Assembly (NCBI RefSeq): GCF_900113175.1
Contig: NZ_FOOK01000004.1
Span: forward strand, 1 to 64,000
DNA: 64,000 bases
Direction of reading: 5' to 3'
Source: Planifilum fulgidum
GTDB taxonomy: Bacteria; Bacillota; Bacilli; Thermoactinomycetales; DSM-44946
A program made the translations under genes and the position numbers. How positions within the stretch are numbered: position 1 is the first letter of the stretch; each line of letters opens with the position of its first letter. A model generated the notes under the pieces. That model was not told the DNA's origin. It worked only from the letters and a program-made list of their open reading frames with translations, and did not search any database. Positions 36,153-62,231 of the stretch are shown here, piece after piece.

Positions 36153-37136
36153 ATGCCCGTGATTTCCTACATCGATGCGGTGACACAGGCCCTTCGCGAA
36201 GAAATGCGCCGCGATCGGCGGGTGTTTGTCCTCGGTGAGGACGTGGGAGTGCGGGGAGGGGTGTTTCGCGCCACCAGCGGTCTGATCGAGGAATTCGGCG
36301 AGGATCGGGTGTTGGACACTCCCTTGACCGAATCGGCCATCGTCGGGGTGTCCATCGGTGCCGCGGCCTACGGACTCCGCCCGGTGGCGGAAATCCAGTT
36401 TGCCGATTTCATCATGCCGGCGATGAACCAGATCGTCAGTGAAGCGGCCCGGCTGCGCTACCGGTCCAACAACGACTGGCATTGTCCTCTCGTCATCCGC
36501 GCCCCCTACGGCGGCGGCGTTCACGGCGCCCTGTACCACTCCCAGAGCGTCGAGTCCCTTTTCATGAGCGTGCCGGGATTGAAGATTGTCGCGCCTTCCA
36601 CCCCCTATGACGTGAAGGGGTTGTTGAAGTCGGCCATCCGGGATGAGGATCCGGTCCTCTTCTTCGAGCACAAGCGCTGTTACCGGCTGATCAAGGGCGA
36701 AGTGCCGGAGGAGGACTACACGATTCCCATCGGCAAGGCGGATGTGAAGCGGGAAGGAACGGACGTCACGGTCATCTCCTACGGGCTCACCCTGCATTTT
36801 GCCCTGAAGGCCGCGGAGGAGCTGGAAAAAGAGGGGATCAGCGTCCACGTGCTGGATCTTCGGACCCTTCGTCCGCTCGACAAGGAAGCGATTCTGGAGG
36901 CGGCGGCCAAGACCGGGAAAGTGCTCATCGTCCATGAGGACAACAAGACGGGAGGGGTCGGCGGGGAAATCTCCGCCATCATCACCGAAGAGGCCTTCTT
37001 TGAGCTGGATGCCCCCGTTCGTCGCCTGTGCGGACCGGACGTGCCGGCGATGCCCTACAGCCCGCCGCTGGAAAAGGAGTACATGCTCAGTCCGGAGAAG
37101 GTGGCCGCGGCCCTTCGCGAGCTGGCGGAGTTTTGA
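36153..37136 (+). CDS. bkdAB: 2-oxoisovalerate dehydrogenase E1 beta subunit
   Basis: 327 residues, full length. VFVLGEDVGVRGGVFRATSG at the N terminus, EIQFADFIMPAMNQIVSEAA in the core and HEDNKTGGVGGEISAIITEE near the C terminus are standard E1 beta features. It starts 12 bases after bkdAA with AGGAGAG upstream. Confidence 0.95.
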   Translation: MPVISYIDAVTQALREEMRRDRRVFVLGEDVGVRGGVFRATSGLIEEFGEDRVLDTPLTESAIVGVSIGAAAYGLRPVAEIQFADFIMPAMNQIVSEAARLRYRSNNDWHCPLVIRAPYGGGVHGALYHSQSVESLFMSVPGLKIVAPSTPYDVKGLLKSAIRDEDPVLFFEHKRCYRLIKGEVPEEDYTIPIGKADVKREGTDVTVISYGLTLHFALKAAEELEKEGISVHVLDLRTLRPLDKEAILEAAAKTGKVLIVHEDNKTGGVGGEISAIITEEAFFELDAPVRRLCGPDVPAMPYSPPLEKEYMLSPEKVAAALRELAEF

Positions 37137-37196
37137 TGCATGCCTCGCGGGAAGCGAAAGGGGAGCGGTGCCACTCTCGGAAAAAGGAGGTAGAAT

Positions 37197-38492
37197 ATGG
37201 CCACCGATGTGACGATGCCCCAACTGGGAGAGAGTGTGACGGAGGGAACCATCACCCGTTGGCTGAAAAAACCGGGCGACCGGATCGCCAAATATGAACC
37301 CTTGTGCGAAGTGGCCACCGATAAGGTGAACGCGGAAGTTCCGGCCACGATCAGCGGAACCCTTCTGGAGATCGTCGCCGAGGAGGGAGCGACCGTCGAA
37401 GTGGGCCAGCTGATCTGCCGGATTGAGGAGGAAGGCAGCACGCCTTCCCCGCAACCTGAGAATCAGGGGAAGGATTCCGCCGCATCCTCCGCTGCCGCCC
37501 CGGCCGGGCAAGGGGACCAGTCGATGAAGCGGCGGTATTCGCCGGCGGTGCTGCGGCTTGCCCAGGAACACGGGATCGATTTGGAGAAAATCGAGGGGAC
37601 GGGCAGAGGGGGGCGGATCACCCGGAAGGATGTCCTCCGGTATATCGAAAGCGGAAAAGCAGGCGCTTCCCCTTCCGCCGATTCGGAACGGATCGGGAAA
37701 AAGCCCGCCGCGCCGGCCGGGAAACCGGCGGCTCCGGAGATTCGGGTTCCCGTCGCCGAACTCCCGGCCAAGGAGGGGCTTTCCGTCCCCCTGGAAGAGG
37801 GGGATCGGGTAGTTCCCGTGACCAGCGTGCGCCGCACCATCGCCCAGCGGATGGTGACCAGCAAGCACGAGGCTCCCCACGCCTGGACGATGGTGGAGGC
37901 GGACGTCACGGGATTGGTTCAACTGCGCGAACGGCTGAAAAAAGAGTTCAAGGAGCGGGAAGGGATTTCCCTGACCTATCTGCCCTTTTTCATCAAGGCG
38001 GTGGTGGATTCCCTCAAGGAATTCCCCTACCTCAATTCCGTCTGGGCGGGCGACCGGATCATCCTCAAAAAACGGATCAACATTTCCATCGCCGTCGCCA
38101 CGGACGACGCCCTATACGTGCCGGTCATCCATGACGCGGACGAGAAGAGCATCGCCGGCCTGGCCAAAGCGGTCCACCGGCTGGCGGAGAAAACCCGGGC
38201 GGGCAAGCTGACCCTCGAGGACATGCAGGGGGGAACCTTTACCGTCAATAACACCGGTTCCTTCGGATCGATCCTGTCCCAGCCGATCATCAATCATCCG
38301 CAGGCGGCGATCCTCTCGGTGGAGTCGATCGTGAAGCGTCCGGTGATCAAGGATTCGATGATCGCCATCCGGGATATGGTGAATCTGTGCCTGTCTTTGG
38401 ACCATCGGGTTCTCGACGGATTGATGGCGGGCCGCTTCCTTCAGCGCGTGAAGGAGCGCGTGGAGGCCTACGGCCCGGACACGCAGATATAG
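37197..38492 (+). CDS. bkdB: Branched-chain 2-oxo acid dehydrogenase E2 (lipoamide acyltransferase)
   Basis: 431 residues. The lipoyl domain has the attachment site CEVATDKVNAEV (Lys near 44). A peripheral subunit-binding domain follows (SPAVLRLAQEHGIDLEKIEG, ~105-145), linked by Ala/Pro-rich stretches to the catalytic domain, which ends with LSLDHRVLDGLMAGRFLQ and its active-site His. It produces isobutyryl-, isovaleryl- and 2-methylbutyryl-CoA, precursors of branched fatty acids. It needs lipoylation, and lipB follows. Confidence 0.95.
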   Translation: MATDVTMPQLGESVTEGTITRWLKKPGDRIAKYEPLCEVATDKVNAEVPATISGTLLEIVAEEGATVEVGQLICRIEEEGSTPSPQPENQGKDSAASSAAAPAGQGDQSMKRRYSPAVLRLAQEHGIDLEKIEGTGRGGRITRKDVLRYIESGKAGASPSADSERIGKKPAAPAGKPAAPEIRVPVAELPAKEGLSVPLEEGDRVVPVTSVRRTIAQRMVTSKHEAPHAWTMVEADVTGLVQLRERLKKEFKEREGISLTYLPFFIKAVVDSLKEFPYLNSVWAGDRIILKKRINISIAVATDDALYVPVIHDADEKSIAGLAKAVHRLAEKTRAGKLTLEDMQGGTFTVNNTGSFGSILSQPIINHPQAAILSVESIVKRPVIKDSMIAIRDMVNLCLSLDHRVLDGLMAGRFLQRVKERVEAYGPDTQI

Positions 38493-38542
38493 GTCGGGTT
38501 TGAGCCTGCGGTGGCGGAAAGCGGGCCGTCACCCGGCTCCTG

Positions 38543-38584
38543 CTCCGGGAGCGTTCGTTTTCTGCCCTCCCGGAGTTTTCTCTT
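38543..38584 (+). terminator. Terminator after bkdB
   Basis: Perfect 9-bp stem CTCCGGGAG / CTCCCGGAG around a 15-base loop, followed by TTTTCTCTT. It ends 14 bases before lipB, so lipB may depend on readthrough or its own promoter. Confidence 0.75.
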
Positions 38585-38598
38585 AGGGGGGATGAAAG

Positions 38599-39270
38599 AT
38601 GTTTGAGGTGTATCGACTCGGGACGGTCCCGTACCGGAAAGCCTGGGACATGCAAAAGGAGCGGGTGCGCCGGATTGACGAAGGGGATGCTTCCAACCAG
38701 CTCCTCTTGCTGGAGCATCCCCACACGATCACCCTGGGGAGGGGCAGCCATGCGGAACATCTGCTGCTCTCCTCCGAAGAATATGCCCGGCGGGGGATCG
38801 ATGTGGTGGAAATCGACCGCGGCGGAGACGTCACCTATCACGGTCCGGGTCAGCTGGTGGGTTATCCGCTCTTTCATCTGGGAGAGCGGGGAAACGACGC
38901 CCACTGCTATTTGCGCGACCTGGAGGAATCCCTGATCATCGCGCTCCGCGCCTTCGGGATCGAAGGGGAGCGGAAGCCTCCCTACACCGGCGTTTGGGTC
39001 GGGGACGAAAAGGTGGCCGCCATCGGCGTCAAGTTCAACCGCGGCCGAAGGAGAAGGGGTTACATCACCAGCCACGGATTCGCCCTGAACGTGTGTTCGG
39101 ATCTCAGCTATTTCGATCTCATCGTCCCCTGCGGTATCCGGGAATACGGCGTCACCTCGATGGAGCGCCTCGGGAAAAAAGTGTCCATGGACGAGGTGAT
39201 GGACCGGGTGGTGGAGGGCATCAGCCGGGTGTTCGGATGGGAAGCGGTGGAAGGGGTGCATTCATCGTAG
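38599..39270 (+). CDS. lipB: Octanoyl-ACP:protein N-octanoyltransferase
   Basis: 223 residues. It transfers octanoate from acyl carrier protein to lipoyl domains. Signatures are DRGGDVTYHGPGQLVGYPLF, the catalytic Lys in VAAIGVKFNRG and the catalytic Cys in IVPCGIREYGVTSM. Placement after the lipoyl-bearing E2 gene is functionally sensible. ATG 38599 has a purine-rich AGGGGGGATGAA just upstream. Confidence 0.94.
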   Translation: MFEVYRLGTVPYRKAWDMQKERVRRIDEGDASNQLLLLEHPHTITLGRGSHAEHLLLSSEEYARRGIDVVEIDRGGDVTYHGPGQLVGYPLFHLGERGNDAHCYLRDLEESLIIALRAFGIEGERKPPYTGVWVGDEKVAAIGVKFNRGRRRRGYITSHGFALNVCSDLSYFDLIVPCGIREYGVTSMERLGKKVSMDEVMDRVVEGISRVFGWEAVEGVHSS

Positions 39271-41709: not shown

Positions 41710-41760
41710 TGAAGAAATCACCCGCTTTGCGTCAGATGTTTGTTCGAAGAAGACGAGGCA

Positions 41761-41853
41761 TCAGAAAAAGAGTCCGACCCCGGTCAAGACGGTGGTCACC
41801 ACCAGCGCGAAGATGATGGTATAGACGACCAGTTTGATCCACAGGGGTTTCAC
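41761..41853 (-). CDS. prli42: Probable stressosome-associated miniprotein Prli42
   Basis: 30 residues: GTG start, short basic N terminus (MKPLWIKLVV), then a single membrane helix to the stop (YTIIFALVVTTVLTGVGLFF). The length, the Lys before a VVY start of the helix and the T-x-L-x-G-x-x-x-F ending recall Prli42, which tethers the stressosome to the membrane in Listeria. AGGTGA lies 8 bases before this GTG; a GTG 12 bases further upstream lacks a spaced ribosome site. A sigma-A promoter lies just upstream. Homology is judged by eye. Confidence 0.65.
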   Translation of the reverse strand: MKPLWIKLVVYTIIFALVVTTVLTGVGLFF

Positions 41854-41876
41854 CAGGCGATTCACCTCACTGTGTT

Positions 41877-41905
41877 ATTGTATCCAACTTCTCACCGGAT
41901 GTCCA
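41877..41905 (-). promoter_or_regulatory. Sigma-A promoter for prli42 and DUF2759
   Basis: On the minus strand TGGACA, a 17-base spacer and TACAAT, one mismatch in each hexamer, 24 bases upstream of the prli42 start. Confidence 0.7.
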
Positions 41906-42113
41906 TGACCAAAGAGGGAAACCTTGTGCGGCGTCCCGGCCGGGGGAGGTGCGGCAAGGCGTCCGAAGATCCGGCATTCATCCAGCGCGGAGGGCTTTCC
42001 TTTTCGGGGGATTGGAACCCCTTTCATCGATCTCCTAGGGAGAAGGTTTTTTTGATATCATAAAAAGAGTGAGCGTGCAAAACAGATCATTGGCTTCAAG
42101 GGGGAAAGAGAGG

Positions 42114-43766
42114 GTGGCGGAGAAAGCGTTTGAGCGGCTGTATCAGGAGTGGCTGGAGAAGACCGAGGAACTTCTCGCCAAATTTCCGGAACGAAAGGAA
42201 CGGTTCACCACCCTTTCCGGAATAGAGGTTGAGCGCCTGTATACACGGCTTGTGGACGAAAAGCGATTGATCGAAAAAATCGGGTTTCCCGGAGAGTATC
42301 CCTATACGCGGGGGATTCGGCCGACGATGTACCGCGGGAGGTACTGGACGATGCGTCAGTACGCCGGGTACGGGTCGGCGGAGGAGACCAACCGCCGGTT
42401 TCGCTATTTGTTGGAACAGGGACAGACCGGCCTGTCCGTCGCCTTTGATCTTCCGACGCAGATCGGATACGATTCCGACGATCCGATGGCGGCGGGGGAA
42501 GTGGGCAAAGTGGGCGTGGCCATCGATTCCCTGGAAGACATGGAGCGTTTGTTCGAAGGGATTCCCCTGGATCAGGTGAGCACATCGATGACCATCAACG
42601 CGCCGGCGTCGGTGCTGCTGGCGATGTACATCGCGGTTGCCGAGAAACAGGGCGTTCCGCCGGAAAAACTCCGGGGGACGATCCAGAACGACATCCTGAA
42701 GGAATACATCGCCCGGGGCACCTATATCTTTCCCCCGAAACCGTCGATGCGCCTGATCACCGACATCTTCGCCTTCTGCGCCGAGCGGGTTCCCCGGTGG
42801 AACACGATCAGCATCAGCGGATATCACATCCGTGAAGCGGGCTCGACGGCGGTGCAGGAGGTGGCCTTCACCCTCGCCAACGGAATCGCCTACGTGAAGG
42901 CGGCCCTGGACAAGGGATTGGACGTGGACGAGTTCGCGCCGAGGCTCTCCTTTTTCTTCAACGCCCACAACCACTTCTTCGAAGAGATTGCCAAGTTTCG
43001 GGCCGCCCGGCGCATGTGGGCGCGGATCATGAAGGAGCGGTTCGGCGCCAAGGATCCGCGTTCGCTCCAGCTCCGCTTCCACACCCAGACGGGCGGCTCC
43101 ACCCTGACCGCCCAACAGCCGGACAACAACATCGTCCGGGTCGCCCTGCAGGCGTTGGCCGCGGTGCTGGGAGGAACCCAGAGTCTGCACACCAATGCCC
43201 GGGATGAGGCCCTGGCCCTGCCGACGGAGGAGTCCGCGCGCATCGCCCTGCGCACCCAGCAGATCATCGCCTACGAGACCGGCGTGGCGGACACCGTGGA
43301 TCCCCTGGGCGGCTCCTTCTACGTGGAAGCCCTCACGGACAAGATCGAGGAGGAAGCGGTGAAATATATCGAAAAGATCGATGAGATGGGGGGCGCCGTC
43401 GCCGCGGTGGAACAGGGGTTCATGCAGCGGGAGATTCACCGCGCGGCGCTGGAAACCCAGCGCCGGATCGAATCGGGCGAAGAGGTGGTGGTCGGTGTGA
43501 ACCGCTTCCGTATGGAAGAGGAACCCGAACCCCAGCTGCTCCGGGTGGATCCGTCCCTGGCCAAGCGGCAGATCGAACGGCTCAAGGATCTCCGCAGCCG
43601 CCGTGACGCCGGGAAAGTGGAGGAATCTCTGGCGGCCCTGAAGCGGGCGGCGGAAGGGACGGACAACCTGATGCCGTACATTCTCGACGCGGTGCGCGCC
43701 TATGCCACCGTGGGGGAAATCTGCCATGCCCTGCGCGAGGTGTTTGGCGAATACCAACCGGTGTAA
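42114..43766 (+). CDS. mcmA: Methylmalonyl-CoA mutase, large (catalytic) subunit
   Basis: 550 residues when started at GTG 42114, which has AGGGGG upstream; GTG 42069 would add 15 residues but lacks a ribosome site. It carries only the CoA-binding TIM-barrel half; the B12 domain is a separate gene. Substrate residues fit methylmalonyl-CoA rather than isobutyryl-CoA: Tyr73 in [17 protein letters not shown] and Arg201 in [14 protein letters not shown]. It interconverts methylmalonyl- and succinyl-CoA. Confidence 0.92.
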
Positions 43767-43852: not shown

Positions 43853-44263
43853 ATGAATCGACCCATTCGCGTGCTGGTGGCCAAGCCGGGGTTGGACGGC
43901 CATGACCGGGGAGCCCTGGTCATCGCCCAAGCTCTCCGGGATGAGGGGATGGAAGTGATCTATACGGGGCTGCGCCAGTCTCCGGAACAGATCGTGAACA
44001 CGGCCATCCAGGAGGACGTGGACGTGATCGGGCTGTCCTGCCTTTCCGGCGCCCACAACGAGCTCTTTCCCGAGGTGACCCGCCTCCTCCGGGAAAAGGG
44101 GGCCGGGGACATTCTGGTGATCGGCGGGGGAACGATTCCCCGATCGGACATTCCCTTTCTGGAAAAACACGGGATCGCCAAGGTGTTCACCCCGGGAACC
44201 CCGACCAAGGAGACGGCGGATTTTATCCGCAAAGCGTTGGCGGAAAGGAAGGGGAGCCGATGA
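43853..44263 (+). CDS. mcmB: Methylmalonyl-CoA mutase, B12-binding subunit
   Basis: 136 residues, a stand-alone cobalamin-binding domain. The DxHxxG motif that supplies the lower axial His is [18 protein letters not shown], with the partner segments [16 protein letters not shown] and [11 protein letters not shown]. It completes the split mutase. It overlaps the epimerase gene by a few bases. Confidence 0.93.
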
Positions 44264-60348: not shown

Positions 60349-60587
60349 GAAGTCATGTGGTCTGCGTCCCGTCCGGCCTTTTGGCGCCGCTTCCCGGCCC
60401 CTTTGACTTCCGCCCGCCTTTCTGACCGATCCGATCGGCGGTCGGCGGGAAACGGAGAACATCGCCTTGCAGAGGTCCCGGCTTCCTTTTCCGCCGCTTC
60501 GCCCTTGCCGGCGAAAAGGAGATTTTCAGATAAAAAGGGACTTCTCCCGACAGGAGCGTCCCGATTTTTCTGTTCTTTTGTCGGAGG

Positions 60588-60617
60588 GAAGGAAGCGGGC
60601 AAAAATCCGTAGAAGTT
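60588..60617 (+). promoter_or_regulatory. Possible sigma-H promoter of spoIIA, with 0A-like box
   Basis: GAAGGAAGC (60588-60596) resembles the sigma-H -35 (RnAGGAwWW) and GTAGAAGTT (60609-60617) its -10 (RnnGAATwW), 12 bases apart. Just upstream, TGTCGGA (60579-60585) is one mismatch from the 0A box. Confidence 0.5.
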
Positions 60618-60646
60618 CCAAGGTAAAAGAGCGGGGAGGGAATGTC

Positions 60647-61000
60647 ATGGGCTTGTCGGTGGAAGTGACGGATTCCCGAAATGTGCTCGTGGTCCGATTG
60701 GCCGGAGAATTGGACCACCACACGGCGGAGAAGGTGCGAAACGAGATTGACGAAAAGCTGACGACGGGGTTGTACACGAATCTGGTCTTCAACCTGTCGG
60801 GGCTCACCTTTATGGACAGTTCCGGGTTGGGCGTTCTTCTGGGTCGATACAAGCGCGTTTCCCAGCTGGGGGGAAATATGATCCTCTGCGCGGTGAATCC
60901 CTCGATATACCGGTTGATGGAGCTTTCGGGGCTGTTCAAGATCCTGCCCATCTACCAAAGCGAGCAGTCGGCCTTGCAAGCCTGCGGGGTGACACTATGA
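60647..61000 (+). CDS. spoIIAA: Anti-sigma-F factor antagonist
   Basis: 117 residues, STAS fold. The regulatory serine is Ser58 in [16 protein letters not shown], the same number as in B. subtilis. It frees sigma-F by binding SpoIIAB when dephosphorylated by SpoIIE. ATG 60647 has GGAGGG 6 bases upstream; the long in-frame extension is non-conserved. Start of spoIIA, overlapping spoIIAB by a few bases. Confidence 0.95.
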
Positions 61001-61452
61001 AGAAGGTACATAGCAATTACATGGAGCTGAAGTTTCCCAGCCGGTCGGAAAACGAATCCTTCGCCCGGGTGGCCGTCGCTTCCTTCGTTTCTCAACTGGA
61101 TCCGACGATGGAAGAGCTGACGGACATCAAGACGGTGGTGTCGGAAGCGGTCACGAATGCGGTCATTCACGGCTACGAAGAGAGAGAGGATGGCATCATC
61201 ACCATCCGCACGGAAATCGAGGGTTCCCGCGTTTTCATCGAAATACGGGACGAAGGCGTGGGAATCCGCGACATCGACCAGGCTCGGCAGCCCCTGTTCA
61301 CGTCGAAACCCGAACTGGAGCGCTCCGGAATGGGCTTTACCATCATGGAGAACTTCATGGATGAGGTGGAGATCATCTCCGAGCCCGGCCGGGGAACCAC
61401 CGTCCGAATGGTGAAAAACCTGAAAACCCCCCATCGGACGATGGCCAACTGA
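60997..61452 (+). CDS. spoIIAB: Anti-sigma-F factor and SpoIIAA kinase
   Basis: 151 residues, GHKL ATPase: N box [19 protein letters not shown]1 box [13 protein letters not shown] and the later [18 protein letters not shown]. It holds sigma-F inactive in the predivisional cell and phosphorylates SpoIIAA. ATG 60997 overlaps the spoIIAA stop. Confidence 0.95.
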
Positions 61453-61463
61453 GGGAGCCGACC

Positions 61464-62231
61464 ATGGATTCCGATGTTCGCAATTCCCGACACGCCCATT
61501 TGCCGGACGAGGAAGTGCGCCGACTGATCGAAGCGAGCCAAAGGGGGGATGAAGAGGCGCGCAACCGGTTGGTCCGGCACAACATTCGCCTGGTTTGGTC
61601 GGTGGTTCAGCGGTTTCTCAACCGGGGCTACGAAGCGGAGGATCTCTTTCAGATCGGGTGTATCGGCCTGCTGAAGGCCGTGGACAAGTTTGATCTTTCT
61701 TACGATGTGAAATTTTCCACCTATGCGGTTCCGATGATCATCGGGGAGATTCAGCGGTTCCTCCGGGACGACGGCATGGTGAAGGTGAGCCGTTCCCTGA
61801 AGGAGCTGGCCAACCGGATCCGGAAGGTGAAGGATGATCTCACCAAGGAGTTGGGCAGGGTGCCGACGGTGAGCGAGATCGCCGCCGAGATGGGGGTTTC
61901 GCCGGAAGAGATCGTTTTTGCCCAGGAGGCGAACCGGACGCCGGCCTCCATCCACGAGACGGTCTATGAAAACGACGGAGATCCCATCACGCTGATGGAT
62001 CAGATCGCGGACGATTCGGAGGAGGCGTGGTTTGATAAAATCACCCTGAATGAGGCGATCAACCGGTTGAGCAAACGGGAGCGGCTGATCGTTTATCTGC
62101 GCTTTTTCAAGGATCAGACCCAATCCGAAGTGGCCGAGCGGCTGGGCATTTCCCAGGTCCAGGTTTCCCGGCTGGAAAAGAAGATCATCCAAAAGATCCG
62201 TCAGGAGTTGGACCCGCCTCCATCACCCTGA
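61464..62231 (+). CDS. sigF: RNA polymerase sigma-F factor
   Basis: 255 residues. Region 2 is visible in RLVWSVVQRFLNRGYEAEDL and FQIGCIGLLKAVDKFD, region 3 in RSLKELANRIRKVKDDL, and region 4 in RLIVYLRFFKDQTQSEVAER with the helix-turn-helix LGISQVQVSRLEKKII. It is the first forespore-specific sigma factor. It starts 11 bases after spoIIAB with GAGGGAGC upstream. Confidence 0.96.
   Translation: MDSDVRNSRHAHLPDEEVRRLIEASQRGDEEARNRLVRHNIRLVWSVVQRFLNRGYEAEDLFQIGCIGLLKAVDKFDLSYDVKFSTYAVPMIIGEIQRFLRDDGMVKVSRSLKELANRIRKVKDDLTKELGRVPTVSEIAAEMGVSPEEIVFAQEANRTPASIHETVYENDGDPITLMDQIADDSEEAWFDKITLNEAINRLSKRERLIVYLRFFKDQTQSEVAERLGISQVQVSRLEKKIIQKIRQELDPPPSP

Follow-up and report, generated by a model that had tools for sequence, protein, structure and literature searches.

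Prli42 in Planifilum fulgidum, a genome in which RsbR and RsbS are not detectably encoded

The closest described system is Prli42 of Listeria monocytogenes, whose curated family model, NF033880, carries the product name 'stressosome-associated protein Prli42'. The protein has been presented as connecting the stressosome to the membrane, and the passages on it in two reports differ in the weight they give to that connection (PMC6614362; PMC9840623). According to the passages of the first that treat the Listeria protein, mutating K4, K5 and R8 singly has an effect on the binding of RsbR (PMC6614362). The corresponding passages of the second describe a prli42 deletion strain that grows like the wild type under several stresses, and a membrane localisation of RsbR1 that depends on Prli42 (PMC9840623).

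We analysed a 64,000-nucleotide stretch of Planifilum fulgidum DNA (positions 1 to 64,000 of contig NZ_FOOK01000004.1, the window). An initial annotation, made from the letters alone, had described here a 30-residue Prli42-like reading frame preceded by an AGGTGA ribosome site and a promoter, TGGACA-N17-TACAAT. All three are present on the minus strand where they had been placed, and the peptide sequence is as it had been given, except that the initial M is encoded by a GTG codon. The gene belongs to a unit with the following features.

41905 to 41877, minus strand: sigma-A-type promoter TGGACA-N17-TACAAT, matching at 10 of 12 positions (-35 TGGACA at 41905-41900, spacer of 17, -10 TACAAT at 41882-41877)
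41867 to 41862, minus strand: ribosome site AGGTGA, read from the sequence, 8 nt 5' of the GTG at 41853
41853 (GTG start) to 41761 (stop), minus strand: prli42 coding sequence, 30 aa (MKPLWIKLVVYTIIFALVVTTVLTGVGLFF), placed by its NF033880 score and by aligned starts and conserved positions
41709 (ATG) to 41539 (stop), minus strand: gene for a 56-aa protein, second after prli42; a GTG at 41721 is also a possible start
41519 to 41502, minus strand: intrinsic terminator-like stem with a T-run, 3' of the second gene

In the 1.1 kb region around prli42, one promoter-like site was seen against 0.3 expected from shuffled sequences. In a genome of the same genus (G231), the -35 and -10 hexamers, their spacing, the ribosome site and the GTG start are identical, whereas other non-coding stretches differ; the stem of the terminator is also kept. 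With about 24 synonymous and 66 nonsynonymous sites, the prli42 coding sequences of the two genomes differ by five changes of the first kind and six, all conservative, of the second. The gene is presumably expressed. A 34-residue form starting at GTG 41865 is possible but less likely, because this codon overlaps the AGGTGA and the starts of related peptides align with the 30-residue form.

The 30-residue peptide is a genuine Prli42 orthologue. The initial annotation had proposed a comparison with the Prli42 family model and with its conserved positions; the peptide scores 35.6 bits against NF033880, above the curated equivalog cut-off of 27.5 (E 5.8e-9), and the alignment shows all of the conserved helix positions, namely the basic residue 8, Tyr12, Ser/Thr21, Thr22 and Gly26. 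A Pfam search with the same peptide returned meaningless weak matches alone (COX7a, COX14, PsbI; E above 2). The protein shares with Listeria Prli42 a length of about 30 residues, a single helix, the basic residue 8, Tyr12, the Ser/Thr-Thr pair and the Gly. It is probably a single-pass membrane miniprotein, with a short basic tail that the positive-inside rule would place on the inner side. It differs from the Listeria protein at residues 4 and 5, which are K4 and K5 there in the passages on RsbR binding (PMC6614362) and Pro-Leu in the window, as well as in its genomic setting: RsbR and RsbS are not detectable in P. fulgidum, and a gene for a two-helix membrane protein lies downstream of its prli42. 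The genes on either side of the unit are listed below.

36153 to 39270, plus strand: dehydrogenase E1-beta, E2 and lipB genes, on the other flank of prli42
42069 to 43766, plus strand: catalytic subunit of methylmalonyl-CoA mutase, divergent from prli42
43853 to 44263, plus strand: B12-binding subunit of methylmalonyl-CoA mutase, in the divergent block beside prli42
from 44260: VOC gene, following the B12-binding gene, in the conserved block
from 44713: carboxylase gene, in the conserved block beside prli42
from 46642: pepT-like peptidase gene, in the conserved block beside prli42

We compared gene order between the window and 20 genomes picked across families, 21 loci in total. Prli42 is divergent from one conserved block in the 20 genomes, the fullest form of which is mutase, VOC, acyl-CoA carboxylase and pepT. 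Most of the 20 carry bkd-like and lipB genes on the opposite flank, and the window is arranged likewise. This gene order is kept both in genomes with a stressosome (e.g. G053, G229, G354) and in genomes without one (G003, G076, G104, G211). It supports orthology and, with the NF033880 score, places the identity of the peptide beyond chance; the original assignment to Prli42 is thus upheld by profile, aligned positions and neighbourhood.

The second gene of the unit encodes a 56-residue protein with two hydrophobic stretches around an NKKTGN motif, and in many genomes of the order Thermoactinomycetales it follows Prli42 immediately on the same strand. Compared with G231, it shows nine synonymous changes and one nonsynonymous change; by these counts it is more strongly constrained than prli42 itself. 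Its nearest described likeness is the DUF2759 family (Pfam PF10958); in an alkaliphile, respiration is supported by a relative of that family, BpOF4_01690 (PMC6120979). The two share a length of 50-60 residues, two hydrophobic stretches and a basic loop. The match to PF10958 scores 16.6 bits where the cut-off is 22, and hhalign against true DUF2759 proteins gives a probability of 48%, a weak similarity between profiles across roughly the first 30 residues. They also differ in location: in the other genomes compared, a distance of at least about 70 kb separates DUF2759 genes from Prli42, unless the two are on different contigs. Because the likeness is sub-threshold, a link of the second gene to respiration should not be relied on. 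Locally, the adjacent two-helix protein is nevertheless the best candidate for physical contact with Prli42, and the two may pair in the membrane.

From the presence of Prli42, RsbR/RsbS-like partners had been predicted in this genome. The assembly is 99.99% complete in 62 contigs, and the prediction fails in it. Across the whole genome, searching for STAS proteins found two only, SpoIIAA and RsbV, and the first of these is the only STAS protein in the window:

60467 to 62231, plus strand: spoIIAA-spoIIAB-sigF; the SpoIIAA is neither RsbS nor RsbR

The RsbS profile gave no match in the whole genome even at E<=10, and the genome has no globin domain of the RsbR type. The sigB operon, which encodes the RsbV, lies on another contig (C13; L071, C13:52000-64000) in its customary surroundings, in the order alr-ndoAI-(ndoA)-rsbU-rsbV-rsbW-sigB-tex; its RsbU retains the RsbU_N domain, and rsbR, rsbS and rsbT were not found at their usual place before rsbU. 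The search for rsbR, rsbS and rsbT that the initial annotation had suggested was therefore negative for the first two, while for the third it revealed a diverged orphan RsbT-like kinase (contig C25; L042:1468-1899, minus strand). This kinase is 36-41% identical to RsbT and gave no matches in a PDB search. Its gene is flanked by an ABC exporter gene on one side and a protoheme IX farnesyltransferase-like gene on the other. Matches similar in strength to that of the kinase occur in 29 of the 38 genomes of the order. RsbR and RsbS are thus not detectably encoded in P. fulgidum and, for this reason, Prli42 cannot anchor an RsbR/RsbS stressosome here.

We surveyed 399 Bacilli genomes and 14 control genomes, calling Prli42 by NF033880 at E<=0.001, RsbS at E<=1e-30 and RsbT-like proteins at E<=1e-10. 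Prli42 was found in 193 of the 399, with 160 of these matches over the curated cut-off, and in one control genome, that of B. subtilis. RsbS was found in 71 Bacilli genomes, 61 of which also carry Prli42; the ten that do not belong to families f17 and f39. The association between the two is positive and strong in a two-by-two table, but the genomes are related, the counts are uncorrected for this, and the p-value cannot be read literally. RsbS is missing from 132 of the 193 Prli42 genomes (about two thirds), and in 93 of these no RsbT-like protein was seen at E<=1e-10 either. Were all 33 sub-cut-off Prli42 matches false and all in RsbS-less genomes, 99 RsbS-less Prli42 genomes would still be left. 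Another 26 genomes, whose RsbS matches all fell in the range 1e-10 to 1e-30, were left out of the RsbS-bearing set because, among the matches listed, these are mostly large proteins of about 500 residues. SigB is missing from 58 of the 193 (about 30%), spread over 12 families and including all 37 genomes of f9 and all six of f40.

A STAS census of 76 RsbS-less Prli42 genomes is consistent with the absence of RsbR and RsbS. The 32 genomes of f15, for example, have an RsbV-sized STAS protein, the others among the matches listed being transporter-sized. At four loci of f8 (L073, L074, L075, L077), rsbT-rsbU comes immediately after ndoA, so that rsbR and rsbS are missing there, and Prli42 is kept. 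RsbS was likewise not found in the same genus or order as P. fulgidum, and about a third of the genomes of this order have no Prli42 match. Prli42 without RsbR/RsbS is therefore the general pattern and not an exception. The initial annotation had taken a lack of stressosome genes as grounds for rejecting the assignment to Prli42. RsbR and RsbS are indeed lacking, although an RsbT-like kinase exists; since most Prli42 genomes have no RsbS, this absence refutes the idea that Prli42 implies a stressosome, and not membership of the family.

Separately, we observed that the 31 genomes of f27 carry RsbT homologues (E about 1e-52 to 1e-60) with no RsbS at E<=1e-30 and no Prli42 match, apparently another stressosome-less use of RsbT.

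The basic residues involved in RsbR binding in Listeria, K4, K5 and R8, are a functional feature of that protein and lie outside the family cut-off of NF033880. At these positions the peptide of the window is basic at 8 alone, with Pro at 4 and Leu at 5. Residue 4 is basic in all ten Prli42 peptides sampled from RsbS genomes; among 27 peptides of the window's order, by hand count, it is Pro in 21 and basic in three, and a basic pair at residues 4 and 5 occurs in two at most. Residue 8 is basic in every peptide of both sets, and Tyr12, Ser/Thr21-Thr22 and Gly26 are largely retained in both alike. The order thus has a Prli42 tail of its own, M-x-P-x-W-[IV]-[KR]. A fuller basic tail is retained in the remaining RsbS-less families that were sampled, so the loss at residue 4 characterises this order and is no rule for genomes without RsbS.

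We think it probable that Prli42 is an old membrane adaptor, used secondarily by the stressosome, and that in P. fulgidum it does the ancestral job of the family. The conserved face of the helix (basic 8, Tyr12, Ser/Thr21-Thr22, Gly26) would pair with a membrane partner inherited across the Bacilli, and the cytosolic tail would dock differing clients, one of them being the acidic patch of RsbR where RsbR exists. The stressosome would then have recruited Prli42 secondarily. In the order of P. fulgidum, the tail has been rebuilt (Pro4, Trp6), and the gene has that of the two-helix membrane protein as its operon partner. Such an adaptor fits the observation that most stressosome genomes have Prli42 and not the reverse, and it fits the wild-type growth of the Listeria deletion strain despite the dependence of RsbR1 localisation on Prli42. 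Counting against it are the positive association of Prli42 with RsbS and the stressosome-related nature of its only published function, as described in the passages on it in PMC6614362. The fuller basic tail in further RsbS-less families and the third or so of the order's genomes without a Prli42 match also weigh on that side. A more detailed version is a tentative proposal, which may well fail in one part or another: an ancient Bacilli adaptor with an undiscovered partner, kept at one place in the chromosome next to genes for acyl-CoA and branched-chain dehydrogenase proteins, for which the stressosome became a later and optional client, and which in this order forms a two-protein membrane module with the adjacent miniprotein.

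Prli42 could alternatively take the place of RsbR and hold either RsbU or the orphan RsbT-like kinase to the membrane, passing membrane stress directly to RsbU, RsbV, RsbW and SigB. The genome does retain all of the parts, including the RsbU_N domain, and within the order an RsbT-like kinase accompanies Prli42 in 24 of 26 genomes as compared with 5 of 12 without Prli42, a correlation that is confounded by relatedness. We nonetheless consider such a reduced pathway unlikely: RsbT is reported, in the part of PMC7705745 that concerns them, to be missing from Listeria Prli42 immunoprecipitates, and 93 Prli42 genomes have neither RsbS nor an RsbT-like protein, while 58 have no SigB. As many Prli42 genomes are without RsbT or SigB, serving SigB through RsbU or an RsbT-like kinase is not the general role of the family. 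The orphan kinase was also considered as a family-wide partner and rejected, many Prli42 genomes having none.

Oxidase miniproteins of the CydX/CydS type are single-helix membrane proteins of about 30-40 residues, and Prli42 resembles them in its small size and one helix. If it were a small accessory subunit of a respiratory oxidase, as those are of cytochrome bd, the stressosome could learn through contact with it how the membrane is respiring. Cytochrome bd is said to co-purify with Prli42 in the section of PMC12153296 dealing with it, and the adjacent reading frame is weakly like DUF2759, with its respiratory relative BpOF4_01690 (PMC6120979). However, that assignment is sub-threshold, the prli42 of the window is unlinked to cyd genes, and the loci compared show no linkage of Prli42 to an oxidase gene. 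Cytochrome bd subunit I, present in 70 of the 80 Prli42 genomes tested, was not found in the other ten, which are P. fulgidum, its congener G231 and eight more. We therefore regard an oxidase subunit as quite improbable; as an obligate partner of Prli42, cytochrome bd is ruled out by these absences.

That strongly diverged RsbR/RsbS, or copies in the gaps of a 62-contig assembly, still partner Prli42 here is very improbable, for although an RsbT-like kinase, of a kind normally held by RsbS, is present, the 99.99% completeness, the STAS and RsbS-profile searches, the sigB operon without rsbR/S/T, the lack of RsbS in genus and order, and a residue 4 that is no longer basic all speak against it.

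We return to Prli42 as an adaptor that would predate its use by the stressosome. The gene itself is a member of a known family; the notable point is the separation of this family from the complex that gave it its name. This separation is not stated in the literature passages that mention Prli42, a set outside which the founding paper lies, and we claim no priority for it. With most carriers lacking RsbS and about 30% lacking SigB, the product name 'stressosome-associated protein' does not amount to a stressosome in the genome, and the question of further binding partners of Prli42 becomes directly testable in laboratory Bacillus.
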